From positions 1 to 58,340 of IMG/VR virus record IMGVR_UViG_3300035670_000243: a stretch of 58,340 nucleotides of DNA. The stretch is one strand, 5' to 3'. This DNA is from a virus. Both the position numbers and the translations under genes were made by a program. Numbering within the stretch: position 1 is the first letter of the stretch; each line of letters begins with the position of its first letter. Shown in pieces: positions 42,911 through 50,541 of this stretch. The notes below the pieces were generated by a model. That model was given only the letters and a program-made list of their open reading frames with translations. It was not told the origin of the DNA and ran no database searches.

Positions 42911-43684
42911 TTATGCGGCCATCTGAACAACGAATCCAGACCGGTCACGCCGTGCGCGACCCTTTGCCTTTAGTCCGACTACTACGTTCGGGTCGTCTAG
43001 GAACCGCAGGTCTGACTCGTCCCCGTTGATCACGCGACGACCTAAAAAGGTTTCGGGGAGCCCACCGTAGAACACGGCCGCAAAATTGACGGCCGACCCG
43101 TAGTTTTTTAGCGCCTTGACAATGACCGGCGCAAACTCTGGACGGTGGGAATAGGAAAAAGTAACGCGATAGTTTGGAATGCGCGTGATCTTGCGGGTCG
43201 GAATTTTGGTGTAATCGTAAAACTGAATTTCGGGGAATGCCGCGAAAATGTTGGGGTATTCGACGCCAGCGCGCACGCATGGGATATTCTCGAATGCGAT
43301 ATCGCTAGTGCCATTTGGGCGCACTACGGGAGTCAGACCCGCACGCGCTGCGCGTTTTTTGAAATTCTCAATTTCACGCACCATGCGTGCCATGAATGCG
43401 TCGCGTGACTCGTGAAACAATCGCGTACGCTCAAGCCGTGCTCGCTGGATTGCGTTGTCGGGCAATGTGTCACCATTGGGAGCGCGAAACGTCGCGTTAC
43501 CCTTTGCCATGCCGCCACGGCCGGCCGTTTTCAAACATCCTTCTTTGCATCCTGCAAGATCCGCCAGCGCGCAGATATTGACGCCGGCAAGATCATAGGG
43601 CGCAAGATACATGACAGCAGTCATGTACCCCTGCGCGTTACCCTTAACGGTTTTCGGGTCGTTTTCGATTGTGAATAGGTTCAT
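42911..43684 (-). CDS. Conserved phage protein with GCKEGCLKTAGRG motif
   Basis: A 257-residue protein from ATG 43684 (ATGA overlap). MNLFTIENDPKTVKGNAQGY, then a three-Cys CALADLAGCKEGCLKTAGRG segment (about 35-54) and IQRARLERTRLF make up a family I have seen in many phages without a known function. The conserved Cys could bind a metal or act in catalysis. The C-terminal half includes TRKITRIPNYRVTFSYSHRP and a beta-rich end. The longer upstream frame covers the previous gene and is rejected. Confidence 0.65.
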   Translation of the reverse strand: MNLFTIENDPKTVKGNAQGYMTAVMYLAPYDLAGVNICALADLAGCKEGCLKTAGRGGMAKGNATFRAPNGDTLPDNAIQRARLERTRLFHESRDAFMARMVREIENFKKRAARAGLTPVVRPNGTSDIAFENIPCVRAGVEYPNIFAAFPEIQFYDYTKIPTRKITRIPNYRVTFSYSHRPEFAPVIVKALKNYGSAVNFAAVFYGGLPETFLGRRVINGDESDLRFLDDPNVVVGLKAKGRARRDRSGFVVQMAA

Positions 43685-43896
43685 GCCGCTACCCTCACGC
43701 GAGCGCCAACGATGCGCGAGCATTCGCGCAGGATTTTCTGAATGGTCGGGTCGGTCGGCGAATAGTCCGCCATTGAATAGCCAAGGATGGCCAGCGACTC
43801 GCGAGCAAGCGAAACATGGTCGCGATGCGAGCACGCAATGTGCCGCGCTACGTTAGTGACAGCGGTTACAGTGTGTAGGCTTTTTGTGAGTGTCAT
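43681..43896 (-). CDS. Small hypothetical protein
   Basis: A 71-residue protein, first in its cluster, with AGGAAATAGCACAC upstream of its ATG. Two helices (VSLARESLAILGY and TIQKILRECSRIV) are evident. It overlaps the following gene by 4 nt. No family is recognised. Confidence 0.6.
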   Translation of the reverse strand: MTLTKSLHTVTAVTNVARHIACSHRDHVSLARESLAILGYSMADYSPTDPTIQKILRECSRIVGARVRVAA

Positions 43897-44305
43897 GTGT
43901 GCTATTTCCTGCGGTTAGTTATCGGACAGGTGACAGAATGCACACAATCCGCGTCGCTGTCAAGCATTCCGCTACCGAGACCACTACGCGGACAGACTGC
44001 ACACAGGTATTGACAACGCACGCGCAAGTAATAACCGCGCACACGCACGCATACGCGCACGTACACGCGCGCGCCTGGCGTGCACGCACGCACGCGCACG
44101 CGATCTAATCGCGCAAATACCCTAGGGACCCCTATAAATCGCGCACGCGCACGCACGAAAAACGCGCACGGGGGAGCACCAAAACCAGGGGCGGGGTGAC
44201 GGGTCCCATCTACACAATTCACCCTCCCCACCCCACCCCAACTCTCACATGCACTACCCCCTTGCGCTATTTACACTAGGGTCCCATCTGGTATGCTCGG
44301 CGTAT
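43897..44305. other. Non-coding gap with CG/CA alternating tract
   Basis: A 409-bp gap between the minus cluster and the terL arm. A TTGACA lies on the minus strand at 43963-43958, 17 bp before CATTCT, as a possible promoter for the cluster. From 44018 to 44105 and again near 44140-44170 the sequence is nearly all alternating pyrimidine-purine CG/CA steps (CACGCGCACACGCACGC and similar), which can adopt left-handed Z-DNA. I see no gene here. Confidence 0.5.
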
Positions 44306-44455
44306 ATGAAAAAGCCCGGACTGTACGAGAACATTCACGCGAAGCGCGAGCGCATTAAAGCTGGGTCCCCGGAGCGCATGAGAAAGCCGGGGTCCCTTGG
44401 AGCGCCGACTGCGAAGGCATTCCGTGACTCAGCTAAAACTGCCAAGCGCAAGTAG
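44306..44455 (+). CDS. Small basic phage protein next to terL
   Basis: A 49-residue, Lys/Arg-rich protein from ATG 44306: MKKPGLYENIHAKRERIKAG, then MRKPGSLGAPTAKAFRDSAKTAKRK. Very similar short proteins are widespread in phage structural regions, often by the terminase or portal. The role is unknown. No good ribosome site is visible. It overlaps the start of terL by 32 nt. Confidence 0.65.
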   Translation: MKKPGLYENIHAKRERIKAGSPERMRKPGSLGAPTAKAFRDSAKTAKRK

Positions 44456-47400
44456 CCAGTCACCGGGGACCCCTCCCCCTCCCCCGGCTGCGATTGACTT
44501 TAACGATCCTTTGATTAGGGAGCTGAACAAGCTTCCGACGGAGGATTTGATAGCGTATGAGAACCGGTTGAGGTGGGTGAATCAGCGTCACAAGCACCAG
44601 AAGCCGCCGAAGGGTGAGTGGACGGTGTGGTTGTTACTGGCGGGACGCGGAGCGGGTAAAGCGCTTTGTGTGGATACGCCTGTTGCGACGGCAACGGGCT
44701 GGACGCGCATGGGTGATCTTCGAGATGGCGATGTGGTGTTTGACGAGCAAGGAGCTGCGTGCACTGTAGTGAAATCGCATGAGCCGTATATTCCTGCTGC
44801 GATGTATCGGTTGACGTTTTCGGATGGCTCAACGATTGATGCGGACGCAGAGCATTTGTGGACGACTTTGACGCATCGTGCGCGAAAGCAGATGACGCGG
44901 CATGGGATTTCCAGGGTTCCGGACGATTGGGCGACATACCGGCATGTGTTGACTGATTGCCACGGCAACGTCACTGGGGAGGTTGGGGCTGAGACGTTGA
45001 CGACTGAGCAGTTGATTGGGTCTTTTACGCACAGTAGCAGGGGTGATTTAAACCACTGCATTCCGACCGCACAGCCGTTAAATCTTCCTGAGAAGGATCT
45101 GCTGATTGACCCATATTTGTTGGGTGTGTGGCTAGGTGATGGCGCATCTAAGGACCAAGTGATTTGGTCACACATTGACGATTTGCCGTTTGCTGAGGCG
45201 CATATTCAGTCGCTGGGTTACGAAACGTCGAGAAAGCACGATCAGGGTAATACGTGGAGTTTGCGCATTCAGGGGCTTGCCGCGCAGCTTAAAGAACTAG
45301 GCGTTTTTAAAAACAAGCATGTTCCAAGCCAATATCTTCGTGCGTCGATTGAGCAGCGTTTAGCGTTGTTGCGCGGGTTAATGGACACCGATGGGTATCA
45401 GTCTTCAAAGGCTGCGGAGTTTTGCAATACCAATCGCGCATTGGCTGAAGCGGTGTATGAGTTAGCGGTGTCATTGGGTGAGAAGCCGACTTTTAAAGAA
45501 AGCCGCGCCATGTTGTACGGTCGTGATTGTGGTGAGAAATATCGCGTGACATGGCGGTGGAATCGGTTTAACCCGTTCTCGTTGCCGCGCAAAGTGAATC
45601 AATTAGCAGCCCCCGAAGCGCAAGCGTTCAAGCACGGGCATCGGATGATTGTGTCGATTGAGCGCATTCAGCCATCCACTGTGCGGTGCATTACGGTGGA
45701 TAGTGCTTCGCGGTTGTATTTGGCCGGGGAGGCCATGATTCCAACGCACAATACACGCGCAGCAGCGGAATGGGTGTGGTGGCAGGCGTACAAAACGCCG
45801 GAGACGCGCTGGTTGGTGTGTGCACCAACGGCAGCGGACATTCGCGATACGTGTTTTGAGGGTGATTCTGGGTTAATTCAGGTGATGCCGGAGCGTGTTG
45901 TATCGGAATACAACCGGTCGCTATCGGAAATTATTCTGAAGAACGGCTCGCTAATCAAAGGCATTTCAGCGGAGACTCCCGACCGGCTGCGCGGTGGTCA
46001 ATGGCATGGTGCTTGGTGTCACCCTGCTGGAACTCCGGTCTTGATGGCAGACGGTAGCGAGAAGCCCATCGAGAAGATCCAAGTAGGTGATGTAGTTCAA
46101 ACGCGATTTGGGCCGCACGCAGTCACGGCATCGGGCTTGAGCCAGAACCCCGCACCGCTGTACCGTATCAGTTATGGCACGACGAACTTGACATGTACCG
46201 CAGATCATCCGATACTGATTGCAGGCCGGGGATGGGTCCCGGCTGAAAGCGTCAGAGTAGGAGATGAGCTATGGATACCATTGAGTTTGGCGGGAAAATA
46301 TGGCGTAAGCGCAAAGACGGGTACTACCGAAACGGTAAGAAGCAGTACCTTCATCGACACGTTTACGAGCAAAGCCACGGAGCTATTCCGCCCGGCTACG
46401 TTGTGCATCACGCCGATCACGACCCGGCTAACAACGACATTACGAACTTGGTGCTTATGCGTCGTTCTGAGCATCACAGCTATCATTCAGCAGGCAGACC
46501 AACGTCTGATAAGCAGAAGCAAGCTGCTTCAGCAACTTTTGTGCGCATGTGGCAAGAGTTGGAGTTGGATTCAAAAGCTTGCGTGCAGTGCGGTACGCAG
46601 TTTGAAAGCAAATCCATGCACAAAACTCGTGAGTTCTGTTCTGCAAAGTGCATGGAGAAGTGGAGAGCAAATGCTTTCCAGCCTGAAGAGCGCAAGTGCG
46701 AAGAGTGTAAAAGCCCTTACGAAGCCGTTAAGCGAACTCAGAAGTATTGCTGCGAGTCTTGCAATCAGAAAGCCGCTACTCGCCGGTATCGGGCGGATCG
46801 ACCCATTACAGTTCAGTCCTGTAATACCTGCGGAAAACAGTACGAAACCAAGCGCGCAAACGCAAGGTTCTGCTCAAGGCCCTGCGCCGTTCGCTATCAC
46901 GGCAAAAATCAGCGCCGTCGAAAGGTTAAAGACGCGGGAGCCGGTTTATAACCTGACAGTTGATCAGGTAAACGAGTACGTTGCAGGCGGAGTCGTGGTG
47001 CATAATTGCGATGAGTTAGCAGCTTGGCAGTACGATCAGGAGGCGTGGGACATGATTATGTTCGCGCTTCGATTGGGGAAACGTCCGAGGATTGTAGCGA
47101 CGACGACTCCGAAGCCGAAGGCGTTGATTCGTGACTTGATTGCGCGTGATGGGGCGGATGTGCACGTTACGAGGGCGAGCACGTACGAGAACATTGCGAA
47201 TTTGGCTCCGACTTTTCAGCAGCAGTTGTTGAAATTTGAGGGCACGACGCTTGGAAGACAGGAAATCCACGCGGAGGTGTTAAATCCTGAGGAGCAGGGG
47301 ATTATCAAGCGCAATTGGGTGAAGCTCTGGCCGGCGAAGAAGCCGTTACCGGCGCTTGAGCACATTGTGATGAGCTTGGACACGGCATTTACGGAGCAGA

Positions 47401-48032
47401 CGAGGGACAAAAAGACGTCCGATTCGGACCCGAGTGCGTGTGTGGTGTTGGGATTGTTCTACGAGAACGAGAAACCGAACATTATTTTGCTGGATTGTTG
47501 GGAAGACCGGCTGGGGATGCCGGAGTTGATCAAGAAGGTGAAGCGGGAGATGGAGGTTTACTACGGGGAGGACGATCAGAAGCCGATTATCAAGCCGATG
47601 TACGGTCCTTCGCGGATGATTAACACGGGTCGGAAGCCCGATACGATAGTGATTGAGGACAAGGGCAGCGGGATTTCTCTCCGTCAGATGCTCTCTAGGG
47701 AGGGGATTCTGGCGCATGCGTATAACCCTGGGAAGGCATCTAAGTTGACCCGATTGCACATGGTGAGTCACTTATTTGCCAGTGGGATGGTGTGGTTTGT
47801 GGAGAGTGAGAAGCGTTCCGGGCAGGTTAGATCATGGGCGGAGCCGCTTTTGTACCAATTGTGTTCGTTTTCGGGGGAGGGGACGATCAAACACGATGAT
47901 TTGATGGATGCTTGCACGCAGGGATTACGTTTCCTAGCGGACAGGGATATGATAAGCGTGAGTAAACCTAAGCCGGTACAGCCGCGACTAATTGTGAACG
48001 AGCGTCCGAGGGGAAATCCATATGGCATCTGA
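44424..48032 (+). CDS. terL: Large terminase subunit carrying two inteins
   Basis: A 1202-residue precursor from GTG 44424 (GAAGG 6 nt upstream; the TTG at 44397 is less likely), giving about 508 residues after both inteins leave. The extein shows Walker A GRGAGKT, split between K and T by intein 1, and Walker B GAWCDELAAW, split between W and C by intein 2, then ATTTPKPKALIRDL and a nuclease domain with SLDTAF, VIEDKGSG and KHDDLMDAC. TerL is the ATP-driven motor and nuclease that packs DNA through the portal. Neither ATP motif exists until splicing occurs, so packaging depends on both inteins. The stop overlaps the portal start by 11 nt. Confidence 0.95.
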   Translation: MTQLKLPSASSQSPGTPPPPPAAIDFNDPLIRELNKLPTEDLIAYENRLRWVNQRHKHQKPPKGEWTVWLLLAGRGAGKALCVDTPVATATGWTRMGDLRDGDVVFDEQGAACTVVKSHEPYIPAAMYRLTFSDGSTIDADAEHLWTTLTHRARKQMTRHGISRVPDDWATYRHVLTDCHGNVTGEVGAETLTTEQLIGSFTHSSRGDLNHCIPTAQPLNLPEKDLLIDPYLLGVWLGDGASKDQVIWSHIDDLPFAEAHIQSLGYETSRKHDQGNTWSLRIQGLAAQLKELGVFKNKHVPSQYLRASIEQRLALLRGLMDTDGYQSSKAAEFCNTNRALAEAVYELAVSLGEKPTFKESRAMLYGRDCGEKYRVTWRWNRFNPFSLPRKVNQLAAPEAQAFKHGHRMIVSIERIQPSTVRCITVDSASRLYLAGEAMIPTHNTRAAAEWVWWQAYKTPETRWLVCAPTAADIRDTCFEGDSGLIQVMPERVVSEYNRSLSEIILKNGSLIKGISAETPDRLRGGQWHGAWCHPAGTPVLMADGSEKPIEKIQVGDVVQTRFGPHAVTASGLSQNPAPLYRISYGTTNLTCTADHPILIAGRGWVPAESVRVGDELWIPLSLAGKYGVSAKTGTTETVRSSTFIDTFTSKATELFRPATLCITPITTRLTTTLRTWCLCVVLSITAIIQQADQRLISRSKLLQQLLCACGKSWSWIQKLACSAVRSLKANPCTKLVSSVLQSAWRSGEQMLSSLKSASAKSVKALTKPLSELRSIAASLAIRKPLLAGIGRIDPLQFSPVIPAENSTKPSAQTQGSAQGPAPFAITAKISAVERLKTREPVYNLTVDQVNEYVAGGVVVHNCDELAAWQYDQEAWDMIMFALRLGKRPRIVATTTPKPKALIRDLIARDGADVHVTRASTYENIANLAPTFQQQLLKFEGTTLGRQEIHAEVLNPEEQGIIKRNWVKLWPAKKPLPALEHIVMSLDTAFTEQTRDKKTSDSDPSACVVLGLFYENEKPNIILLDCWEDRLGMPELIKKVKREMEVYYGEDDQKPIIKPMYGPSRMINTGRKPDTIVIEDKGSGISLRQMLSREGILAHAYNPGKASKLTRLHMVSHLFASGMVWFVESEKRSGQVRSWAEPLLYQLCSFSGEGTIKHDDLMDACTQGLRFLADRDMISVSKPKPVQPRLIVNERPRGNPYGI
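44661..45752 (+). mobile_element. Intein 1: class 3-like, in TerL Walker A, with LAGLIDADG endonuclease
   Basis: A 364-residue intein from A1 (ALCVDTPVATATGW) to MIPTHN with Thr as the next extein residue; removing it restores GRGAGKT. It lacks Cys at position 1 but has the class 3 triad: W67 in block B (AEHLW), C343 in block F (RCITVD) and T362 in block G (PTHN). Endonuclease motifs are LLGVWLGDGA (153-162) and LLRGLMDTDG (236-245). Taking the Cys at residue 3 as the first residue would leave two extra extein residues inside Walker A. Homing would target the uninterrupted Walker A codons of other terL genes. Confidence 0.9.
46017..47006 (+). mobile_element. Intein 2: class 1-like, in TerL Walker B, hosting an out-of-frame HNH gene
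   Basis: A 330-residue insertion from C1 (CHPAGTPVLMADGSEKPI) to GGVVVHN, followed by Cys as the first extein residue; removal joins GAW to CDELAAW. Block B TADHPIL has T61 and H64; block F is VYNLTVDQVNEYVAGG. The splicing parts are about residues 1-88 and about 295-330. The roughly 227 residues between them, in the terL frame, are Ser/Leu/Ala-rich and match no endonuclease. This DNA encodes an HNH protein in another frame. The splice residues look complete, so splicing is expected, with a long linker of unknown fold in place of the usual endonuclease. Confidence 0.9.
46271..46951 (+). CDS. HNH endonuclease nested out of frame inside intein 2 of terL
   Basis: A 226-residue protein read in a different frame from terL. 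It has its own AGGAG (46259-46263) 7 nt before ATG 46271. The HNH core is LHRHVYEQSHGAIPPGYVVH then HADHDPANNDITNLVLM (about 27-63), followed by three repeated Cys modules: C104/C107 with C123/C127, C143/C146 with C160/C164, and C184/C187 with C201/C205. It begins just after the intein block containing VGDELWIP and its stop falls in the codons of block F (VYN), so it fills exactly the endonuclease slot. It probably drives homing of intein 2. Both frames are intact. Confidence 0.9.
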   Translation: MDTIEFGGKIWRKRKDGYYRNGKKQYLHRHVYEQSHGAIPPGYVVHHADHDPANNDITNLVLMRRSEHHSYHSAGRPTSDKQKQAASATFVRMWQELELDSKACVQCGTQFESKSMHKTREFCSAKCMEKWRANAFQPEERKCEECKSPYEAVKRTQKYCCESCNQKAATRRYRADRPITVQSCNTCGKQYETKRANARFCSRPCAVRYHGKNQRRRKVKDAGAGL

Positions 48033-50541
48033 GCCGAATGATTTGGATGAAGCGAAGGAAGACCTTGGTGAGATGTTTGAACTCCCTGATGAGGTGTCTG
48101 AGATTGAGGACACTGAGGACGGCGGGGCGATTGTTCGTTTTGAAGAGGAGTCCGAGGAGTCTGTTGAGTTGGAGTTTTACTCTAACTTAGCGGAGACGCT
48201 GCCTGAGGGGGAGATGGACGACTTGGCCCAGAGTTTGTTGGGTTTGGTGTCCAAGGACAAGGAAGCGCGTAAGAAGCGTGATGAGCAGTATGAAGAGGGA
48301 ATCCGGCGTACGGGACTTGGAGATGATGCACCAGGCGGCGCTCAATTTCAGGGTGCAAGTCGGGTTGTGCACCCCATGCTTACTGAGGTTTGCGTGGACT
48401 TCTCTGCCCGAGCTATTAAGGAGCTTTTCCCGGCTGCGGGTCCGGTAAAGGACTACATTGTTGGGGAGCCGACTGCGGACAAGGTGACGAAGGCATCGCG
48501 CAAGAGCCAGTACATGAACTGGCAGTTGACGCAGCAGATGCCGGAGTTCCGTGCGGAGTTGGAGCAATTACTGACTCAGGTCCCGCTGGGTGGTGCGCAG
48601 TATTTGAAGTTGAGTTGGGACTCTGGCAAGCGCCGTCCGGTTCCGCTGTTCATTGGTATTGACGACATTTACCTGCCGTACGCGGCAACGAACTTTTATT
48701 CGGCCGAGCGCAAGACGCACGTTCAGTACGTGACGGAGATTGAGTACCGGCAGCGGATTCGCTCTGGGATGTATCGGGATGTTGACTTGGCTCCGACGAC
48801 GATGGAGCCGGATGTCTCGAAGGCTGAGAAGGCAAACAACAAGATCGAGGGTCGCGACAGCAGCGCGTACGACGTTGACGGGCTGCGCACGATCTTTGAA
48901 ATCTATGTCATTTCTGACATAGAAGACGAGTACGGGCTGGCTCCGTACATTGTTTCTCTGGACAAGACGACGGGTAAGGTTCTCAGCATCTATCGCAACT
49001 GGCGTGAGGAAGACGACACGCTTGAGGAGATGCAGTGGATCATTGAGTTCCCGTTTGTTCCGTGGCGTGGTGCGTACCCGATTGGCATTCCGCAGATGAT
49101 TGGCGGATTGTCTGCTGCGGCTACGGGTGCTCTTCGGGCGCTGTTGGATTCTGCGCACATTGCGAACTTTCCTGGAATGCTGAAGCTGAAGGGCGGTCGT
49201 GAGGGCGGGCAGTCTGAGCGCATTGATCCGACCGAGGTTAAGGAGATTGAGGGCGGCGCGTTTTCGGATGACATCCGAAAGATTGCGATGCCGTTGCCGT
49301 TCAACCAGCCTTCTGAGACGTTGTTCCGATTGCTGGGCTTTTTGATTGAGTCTGGCAAGGGCGTGGTTCGCACCACGATGGAGAACATCACCGACAGCAA
49401 CGCCAACGTCCCGGTTGGTACGCAGCTCTCGCGTATTGAGCAGGGGATGATGGTATTCAGTGCGATTCATGCGCGATTGCATGATGCGATGGGTCGCACG
49501 CTGAAGGTTCTGCATCGTTTGAACGCGATGTACTTGGAGGACGAAGAGGTCAAGGAAGAGCTTGGCGAGTTGATTGTTCGCCGTTCTGACTTTGAAGGTC
49601 CGATGGATGTGGTTCCGGTTTCGGACCCGAACATTTTCAGCGAAGCCCAGCGTTACGCTCAGGTTCAGGCTCTTGCTCAGCGTGCGATTGCTTTGCCGCA
49701 GATTTACGATTTGCGCAAAGTTGAAGAGCGCATCCTTGATCAGTTGAAGATTCCGAATGCCAAGGATTTGTTGGTTCCTGCTCCGAAGCCGAAGGAGATG
49801 AATGCCGTTAATGAAAACATTGCTGCAACTCTTGGGCGTCCACTATCGGCGTTCCCGGAACAGGATCACCTTGCGCACATCCAGGTCCACTTGGACTATC
49901 TCACTAGCCCCGTACTGGGTGGCGGTTTCCTCATGTCGGGGACATACATTCCTGTCATTCTTAACCATCTCAAAGAGCATATCGCTCTTTGGTATGCGAA
50001 TCATGTCTTTGAAGTTGCCTCTAGCGCGATGGGTCGGGACATTTCGGAAGTCCAGCGCGAAAAGGGCAGTTCGGAATTGAAGCGCAGCTTTGACCAGATG
50101 CTGGCTGCGGCATCTCAGCGCGTAGTTCCGGATGCGGCAAAGGCGTTCAGCGCGATCCCGCAGATCGTTCAGCAAGCGATGCAGGTCATGCAGCAGATGC
50201 AGGGCATGGGACCGCAAGATCCGAAGACGGCGGCGCAGATGGCAGAGACGCAGCGCAAGGCTGCTGCGGATCAAGGGTTGCTTCAGGTCAAGCAGGCCGA
50301 GTTGCAGCTTGAGGCGCAGAAGGTGCAGTCTGGTTCGCAAGAGCAGACAGCGAAGATGCAGCAGGCAGCGCAGCGTGAAGTGCTCAAGCAGGATCGCTTG
50401 GACGAGCGTCAGGCTGCTGAGCTTCAGGTCAAGATGCTTACGAACCGCGAGGACAACCAGACGGCGAAGGACATCGCTGCTGCGGAAGTTCTCACGGGTG
50501 AAAAGGTTGGTGTTTCAACGGGCACGGGTATTAACCCGTAG
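48022..50541 (+). CDS. Portal protein
   Basis: An 839-residue protein starting 11 nt inside terL. After an acidic N terminus (about 1-60) comes the portal core with DDAPGGAQFQGASRVVHPML, the EYGLAPYIVSLDK region and GALRALLDSAHIANFPG. The C-terminal 130 residues are a Gln/Ala-rich coiled coil (KAAADQGLLQVKQAELQLEA), as in other large podovirus portals with a barrel. It forms the dodecameric DNA channel and motor dock. Length and gene order next to terL support the call. Confidence 0.85.
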   Translation: MASEPNDLDEAKEDLGEMFELPDEVSEIEDTEDGGAIVRFEEESEESVELEFYSNLAETLPEGEMDDLAQSLLGLVSKDKEARKKRDEQYEEGIRRTGLGDDAPGGAQFQGASRVVHPMLTEVCVDFSARAIKELFPAAGPVKDYIVGEPTADKVTKASRKSQYMNWQLTQQMPEFRAELEQLLTQVPLGGAQYLKLSWDSGKRRPVPLFIGIDDIYLPYAATNFYSAERKTHVQYVTEIEYRQRIRSGMYRDVDLAPTTMEPDVSKAEKANNKIEGRDSSAYDVDGLRTIFEIYVISDIEDEYGLAPYIVSLDKTTGKVLSIYRNWREEDDTLEEMQWIIEFPFVPWRGAYPIGIPQMIGGLSAAATGALRALLDSAHIANFPGMLKLKGGREGGQSERIDPTEVKEIEGGAFSDDIRKIAMPLPFNQPSETLFRLLGFLIESGKGVVRTTMENITDSNANVPVGTQLSRIEQGMMVFSAIHARLHDAMGRTLKVLHRLNAMYLEDEEVKEELGELIVRRSDFEGPMDVVPVSDPNIFSEAQRYAQVQALAQRAIALPQIYDLRKVEERILDQLKIPNAKDLLVPAPKPKEMNAVNENIAATLGRPLSAFPEQDHLAHIQVHLDYLTSPVLGGGFLMSGTYIPVILNHLKEHIALWYANHVFEVASSAMGRDISEVQREKGSSELKRSFDQMLAAASQRVVPDAAKAFSAIPQIVQQAMQVMQQMQGMGPQDPKTAAQMAETQRKAAADQGLLQVKQAELQLEAQKVQSGSQEQTAKMQQAAQREVLKQDRLDERQAAELQVKMLTNREDNQTAKDIAAAEVLTGEKVGVSTGTGINP

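Follow-up and report, generated by a model that had tools for sequence, protein, structure and literature searches.

Fractured genes, in which split inteins go together with free-standing endonucleases, are said to have been described by Dassa et al. in 2009. The element considered here, the second intein (intein 2) of the large terminase gene (terL) in the 58,340-nucleotide (nt) viral stretch IMGVR_UViG_3300035670_000243 (the window, meaning the whole stretch of DNA that was analysed), resembles them in that a nuclease gene, predicted to be expressed separately, lies between two Hint halves, but differs from them in that the host gene is unsplit. With a probability of roughly 85%, intein 2 is read here as a two-frame homing intein, whose HNH nuclease is encoded out of frame inside the intein and would be translated by internal initiation.

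Other described systems share single aspects of this arrangement. The intein in the dCTP deaminase of cyanophage CL131, for which self-excision was demonstrated in E. coli (PMC6293099), likewise joins a Hint domain and an HNH_3 nuclease as one mobile unit, but its HNH is in frame and is made as part of the intein, whereas that of the window is predicted to be a separate protein from another frame. According to Arsenault, Gosselin and Gogarten 2025 (PMC11855218), phage DNA methylases contain an out-of-frame HNH insertion, the 'ShiLan domain', for which neither an intein splicing domain nor a ribosome-binding site was found, and which was proposed to stay in the methylase. The window locus agrees with ShiLan, as depicted there, in its out-of-frame HNH within a stop-free host frame, and departs from it in the Hint blocks that flank the HNH, in the presence of a Shine-Dalgarno sequence (SD), and in a host that across the family is mainly TerL. 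The inteins of mycobacteriophages are also located in phage TerL (Kelley et al. 2016; PMC5050341), although a term search of that article turned up neither an HNH nor an out-of-frame nuclease in this protein. Closest in position is a mini-intein of 126-127 amino acids (aa) found in contigs L098-L100, which occupies the same TerL Walker B site and is 61-65% identical to the window intein over their shared parts, but has no HNH gene. The split arrangement, with an HNH of the same family, occurs in Vibrio phage 1.238.A and Lactobacillus phage CL2.

The terL open reading frame (ORF) of the window is matched by both Terminase_6N and Terminase_6C in Pfam and, contrary to a fractured gene broken into two ORFs, runs as a single open frame of 1211 aa (Table 1). 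Intein 2 exhibits the whole set of class-1 features, namely Cys1, a TxxH block B (TADH), a block F (VYNLTV), and a block G His-Asn followed by Cys, Ser or Thr at +1 (here an HN/C junction), with residues C1, T61, H64, Y311 and N330 being invariant across alignments. It scores 36.4 bits against Intein_splicing (PF14890; cut-off 35.8), and its insertion is precise, the gap at this site being exactly 0 in relatives and 990 nt in the window. In the terL frame its AlphaFold model reaches a predicted local distance difference test (pLDDT) above 90 in both Hint halves, and its fold matches in the PDB are the GyrA, DnaB and RecA inteins. The linker between the halves, on the contrary, is modelled mostly with pLDDT below 50 over residues 101-290 (below 50 at 101-158 and 208-290). 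Thus, judged by every sequence feature tested, the element is an intein, except that the in-frame endonuclease of conventional large inteins is replaced by an HNH gene in the frame displaced by +2 from that of the host (host+2).

This HNH gene encodes a protein that matches HNH_3 (PF13392) with an E-value of 2.1e-16, as do 32/32 family members tested, and that displays zinc-finger-like Cys pairs, of the zinc-binding kind, after the HNH core. Its AlphaFold model has a mean pLDDT of 89.6 with zero residues below 50; Foldseek gave no significant whole-chain match for it, while the best match of a PDB sequence profile search was 1u3e, a solved HNH homing endonuclease, with a weak but supportive E = 0.009. 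The sequence-only reading had already located a 226-residue HNH ORF out of frame in intein 2, an AGGAG 7 nt before its ATG, a terL frame open throughout, and a stop in the block-F codons VYN, and all these features are found as it had described. It had also placed the start just after the motif VGDELWIP, which needs correction: the ATG is formed inside the motif from CTA TGG (terL codons L-W), with the SD overlapping the V-G-D codons. The stop, TAA at 46949-46951, arises from TAT AAC within the block-F codons GTT TAT AAC.

The same layout recurs widely. A tblastn search of phage records with the HNH returned matches within several terL genes, including out-of-frame HNHs inside terL inteins of Tetrasphaera phage TJE1, Acinetobacter phage Highwayman and Rhodobacteraceae phage LS06-2018-MD07, which occupy a TerL site other than that of the window; in these three cultured or named phages examined, the annotation over the nested HNH is terL only. 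Scans of viral contigs and bacterial genome contigs, followed by profile classification of the HNHs by their flanking Hint, yielded 118 non-redundant HNHs with both Hint halves at their sides and an open host frame, from cultured phages, metagenomic phages and contigs of metagenome-assembled genomes. Since the searches were seeded with nested HNHs, these counts reflect breadth and not the share of TerL inteins with nesting. Another 5 HNHs were flanked by both Hint halves, with the host frame broken; none of these 123 fully flanked HNHs was in frame (a single in-frame HNH had just the N half), and the host frame was open for none of 25 HNHs without Hint nearby. Hosts are overwhelmingly TerL, with 21 insertions at Walker B and ~70 in the C-terminal nuclease region; for L191 and L219 the host has no Pfam match outside the intein. 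An assembly error by frameshift, which the sequence-only reading had named among possible refutations, is ruled out by recurrence across independent assemblies, GenBank phage genomes among them. That reading had further called the arrangement rare or undescribed; rare it is not, whereas the searched literature, which is thin in subscription journals, describes no contiguous intein whose nuclease gene is out of frame, and contains one close relative, the ShiLan insertion, whose survey may include a Hint-containing case.

Some particular loci were also observed within this set. A two-frame intein lies in a phage portal gene (Phage_portal_3) instead of terL in L195 (619-3126), and L128, L132 and L148 each carry two two-frame inteins per terL, one at Walker B and one near the C-terminal nuclease motif. 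L199 (3520-4401), together with L200, is the sole nested case in the opposite phase, its host frame being open where the usual one is closed, and is probably of independent origin.

Selection differs sharply between the two frames. Across pairs of nested inteins that share 62-98% identity, the ratio of nonsynonymous to synonymous substitution rates (dN/dS) was 0.06-0.26 for the HNH frame and 0.06-0.32 for the N-terminal Hint half (HintN) in the terL frame, but mostly 0.85-2 for the terL frame over the HNH DNA. Between the window and L007 the corresponding values were 0.13, 0.07 (dN 0.04, dS 0.5) and ~1.2. Therefore, the host frame over the HNH stays open but is not conserved as protein, in agreement with the AlphaFold models; these ratios indicate that selection acts on the nuclease in its reading frame and, in that of terL, on the splicing blocks.

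The nuclease also appears to draw its start and stop from conserved Hint codons. When the ATG nearest to the HNH match was chosen irrespective of SD, an SD of at least 4 bases preceded 29/55 HNH starts versus 71/829 of the remaining ATGs in these inteins (p = 2e-15). The HNH stop derives from the Tyr-Asn/Asp codon pair of block F in 41/117 family members and lies exactly 12 nt further, still within block-F codons, in another 32 of the 117, and a TAA in the HNH frame is already present in the mini-inteins L098-L100. The phase of the nested gene is host+2 in 117/118 cases, probably because stops block the third frame (725 in 11,471 codons of the nested set) and the Hint codons provide ready start and stop signals.

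Regarding mobility, about 80 TerL relatives, 83-96% identical, were matched contiguously, and in the 30-odd of them that were aligned in detail the site is exactly empty, so that three alleles of the intein 2 site are observed: empty, mini-intein (L098-L100) and two-frame (window, L007-L010 and L097). Between the window and L018, downstream terL is mostly 95-100% identical beyond ~300 nt of the insert, versus 84-92% within ~300 nt past it and 86-89% between the two inteins of the gene, a low-identity tract as would be expected from co-conversion. On the HNH tree, the Walker B site requires 2 changes versus 19.9 in shuffles, HNHs thus clustering by insertion site, and Hint and HNH distances within this site are correlated (Mantel r = 0.81).

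Considering all these observations, the terL frame would be translated through the whole element into a precursor, whose two Hint halves would fold together and excise themselves from TerL at Walker B, discarding a linker of ~190 residues predicted to be unstructured. Ribosomes would also initiate internally, at the SD and ATG built from the last HintN codons, and read the same DNA in host+2 into a separate HNH zinc-finger endonuclease that ends at the stop formed by block F. This nuclease would then cut intein-free terL at Walker B in a co-infecting phage, and repair would copy the intein and the nuclease gene together; the HNH enzyme is thus probably what spreads the intein. Splicing, internal translation, cutting and homing are what we infer from the patterns above, and the substitution ratios, SD enrichment, allelic series, co-conversion-like tract, clustering of HNHs by site and Hint-HNH co-variation together favour what the sequence-only reading had proposed in essence, a two-frame intein with an internally started HNH that mobilises it. 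Several points weigh against this interpretation: both proteins, as well as the cutting of the homing site, are predictions from sequence; under the strict rule the SD is weak or absent at about half of HNH starts; ordinary recombination might also account for the reduced identity beside the insert; and most loci are metagenomic contigs gathered by HNH similarity, which biases frequencies.

Whether the open terL frame might be a coincidence, the nuclease gene just happening to be stop-free and the intein being a relic, depends on how surprising that frame is. The sequence-only reading had put its chance near 2 in 100,000, assuming even composition and no coding constraint, a value that is too small because the DNA codes in another frame. 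When the HNH protein was kept and synonymous codons were shuffled, 2.3-2.9 stops were expected in the terL frame, which was stop-free in 1.5-5.7% of shuffles, or in 0.4% when codon order was shuffled, while the third frame showed ~16 stops and was never free. With a chance of 0.4-6% given the HNH protein, the window locus alone is only modestly surprising, and it is recurrence that gives significance. Over the HNH, the host frame of the first 62 non-redundant nested cases contains 0 stops in 11,471 codons versus 90.6 expected from synonymous shuffles, whereas 20 other HNH relatives, mostly free-standing, contain 128 stops in 3,836 codons of that frame versus 122.9 expected. Being open defines the nested class, and the fair comparison is therefore 118 open to 5 broken frames with Hint on both sides versus 0/25 without Hint. 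Together with the strong purifying selection on the Hint halves, their invariant Cys1, Thr, His and Asn, and a terL frame consistently open in close relatives, this makes coincidence hardly credible. Programmed -1 frameshifting from the terL frame, which would produce a HintN-HNH fusion in place of a separately initiated protein, is unlikely. The nearly constant -1 (host+2) phase and a GGGAAAA at 46292 of the window, in the correct register, speak for it; nonetheless, the junction shows no enrichment of slippery heptamers (10/2359 positions versus 10/3875 in the Hint body), SDs are enriched at the HNH ATG, a TGA at 46265-46267 closes the HNH frame just ahead of that ATG, and the phase is accounted for by the closed third frame.

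Phage group I introns often hold HNH genes, and the insert might accordingly be removed at the RNA level, its resemblance to Hint being misleading. Such an explanation is scarcely tenable for an insert of 990 nt (3 x 330) with an open frame and intact intein blocks, whose fold matches in the PDB are inteins and whose site is occupied in relatives by mini-inteins devoid of HNH; nor, with E-values of up to 1 allowed, did positions 44000-48500 yield any Rfam intron match that would indicate a group I ribozyme core. A nested HNH that has given up homing and been retained for some other role, helping DNA packaging for example, would account for the concentration in terL, but is also rather improbable. 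HNH proteins beside terminases do act in packaging in some phages (HK97, as cited in PMC10448857), and the hosts are overwhelmingly TerL, but presence is patchy, with TerL relatives up to 96% identical lacking the element, a portal gene carries it too, and the HNHs cluster by insertion site.

Regarding evolution, the free-standing versus nested state of the HNHs requires 14 changes on the HNH tree (FastTree, with many weak branches), and the layout therefore probably arose or dissolved repeatedly. A free-standing HNH related to that nested in terL of Highwayman was observed upstream of terS in Acinetobacter phage BP10 (L006 2495-3136 and L003), and the two possibly represent a source-and-capture pair. 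In Vibrio phage 1.238.A the terL frame stops after HintN and is followed by the HNH ORF and then by the C-half, which has its own ATG behind a strong SD (GGAGG) inside the HNH 3' end; the layouts of Lactobacillus phage CL2 and of contigs L170, L175 and L207 resemble it, and in L269 the host frame is broken too. These look like fractured genes, with a direction of change that we infer. Split versions (L002 2495-3458; L160 1955-2771; L170; L175; L207) combine a terL N-half bearing HintN, an overlapping or adjacent HNH, and a C-half ORF that begins in the HNH 3' end, and their TerLs are candidates for natural trans-splicing.

Table 1. Features of the terL locus, in window coordinates.
Feature	Position	Strand	Details
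terL ORF (large terminase), two inteins inside	44397-48032	+	One open frame, 1211 aa; open-frame bounds
Intein 1 at Walker A (GAGK/TRAAAE), ordinary layout	44661-45752	+	364 aa, in-frame LAGLIDADG_3 match
Intein 2 at Walker B (GAW/CDELAA)	46017-47006	+	330 aa, terL frame, class-1 motifs
N-terminal Hint half of intein 2, terL frame	46017-46274	+	Hidden Markov model (HMM), 102.6 bits
SD (AGGAG) for HNH	46259-46263	+	7 nt ahead of ATG, within Hint codons for V-G-D
HNH_3 endonuclease gene	46271-46951	+	Host+2 frame, ATG to TAA, 226 aa, PF13392
terL-frame reading of HNH DNA, open linker in endonuclease slot	46275-46934	+	Apparently unstructured (pLDDT, dN/dS)
C-terminal Hint half, blocks F and G, provides HNH stop codon	46935-47006	+	HMM, 47.1 bits

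The other intein of this terL, intein 1, has its 5' border placed 6 nt upstream of the Cys by means of the exact empty site in relatives, and its Ala1 and T+1 suggest a class-3 type. Only 264 nt separate the two inteins, whose nuclease layouts differ, within one gene. Upstream of terL, an alternating CG/CA-rich dinucleotide run (cgcacgcacgcatacgcgcacg...) of unusual composition, possibly regulatory or Z-DNA-prone, was noted at 44030-44110, and a Gene product 88 family protein (PF17338) is encoded on the minus strand at 42911-43834, just upstream of the terL region.

Taken as a whole, two-frame inteins may form a large and repeatedly formed class of tailed-phage mobile elements with fully overlapping genes, pre-wired in phase, conserved Hint codons supplying the SD, start and stop of the nuclease, and serving as a stepping stone to split inteins. 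For this joint proposal the case for and against seems evenly balanced. Were it correct, the class would bridge contiguous inteins and split inteins with free-standing nucleases, because openness alone ties the host frame. The finding reveals that one of the best-known phage genes conceals full-length overlapping genes, an unannotated layout present in well over 100 different phage sequences, and indicates how an intein may carry a nuclease untethered from splicing, as a splicing counterpart to the 'hidden HNH' of phage methylases. It provides clean natural material for dual coding, with one frame constrained as protein and the other only kept open, and it suggests a way, open to testing, in which natural split inteins could arise.
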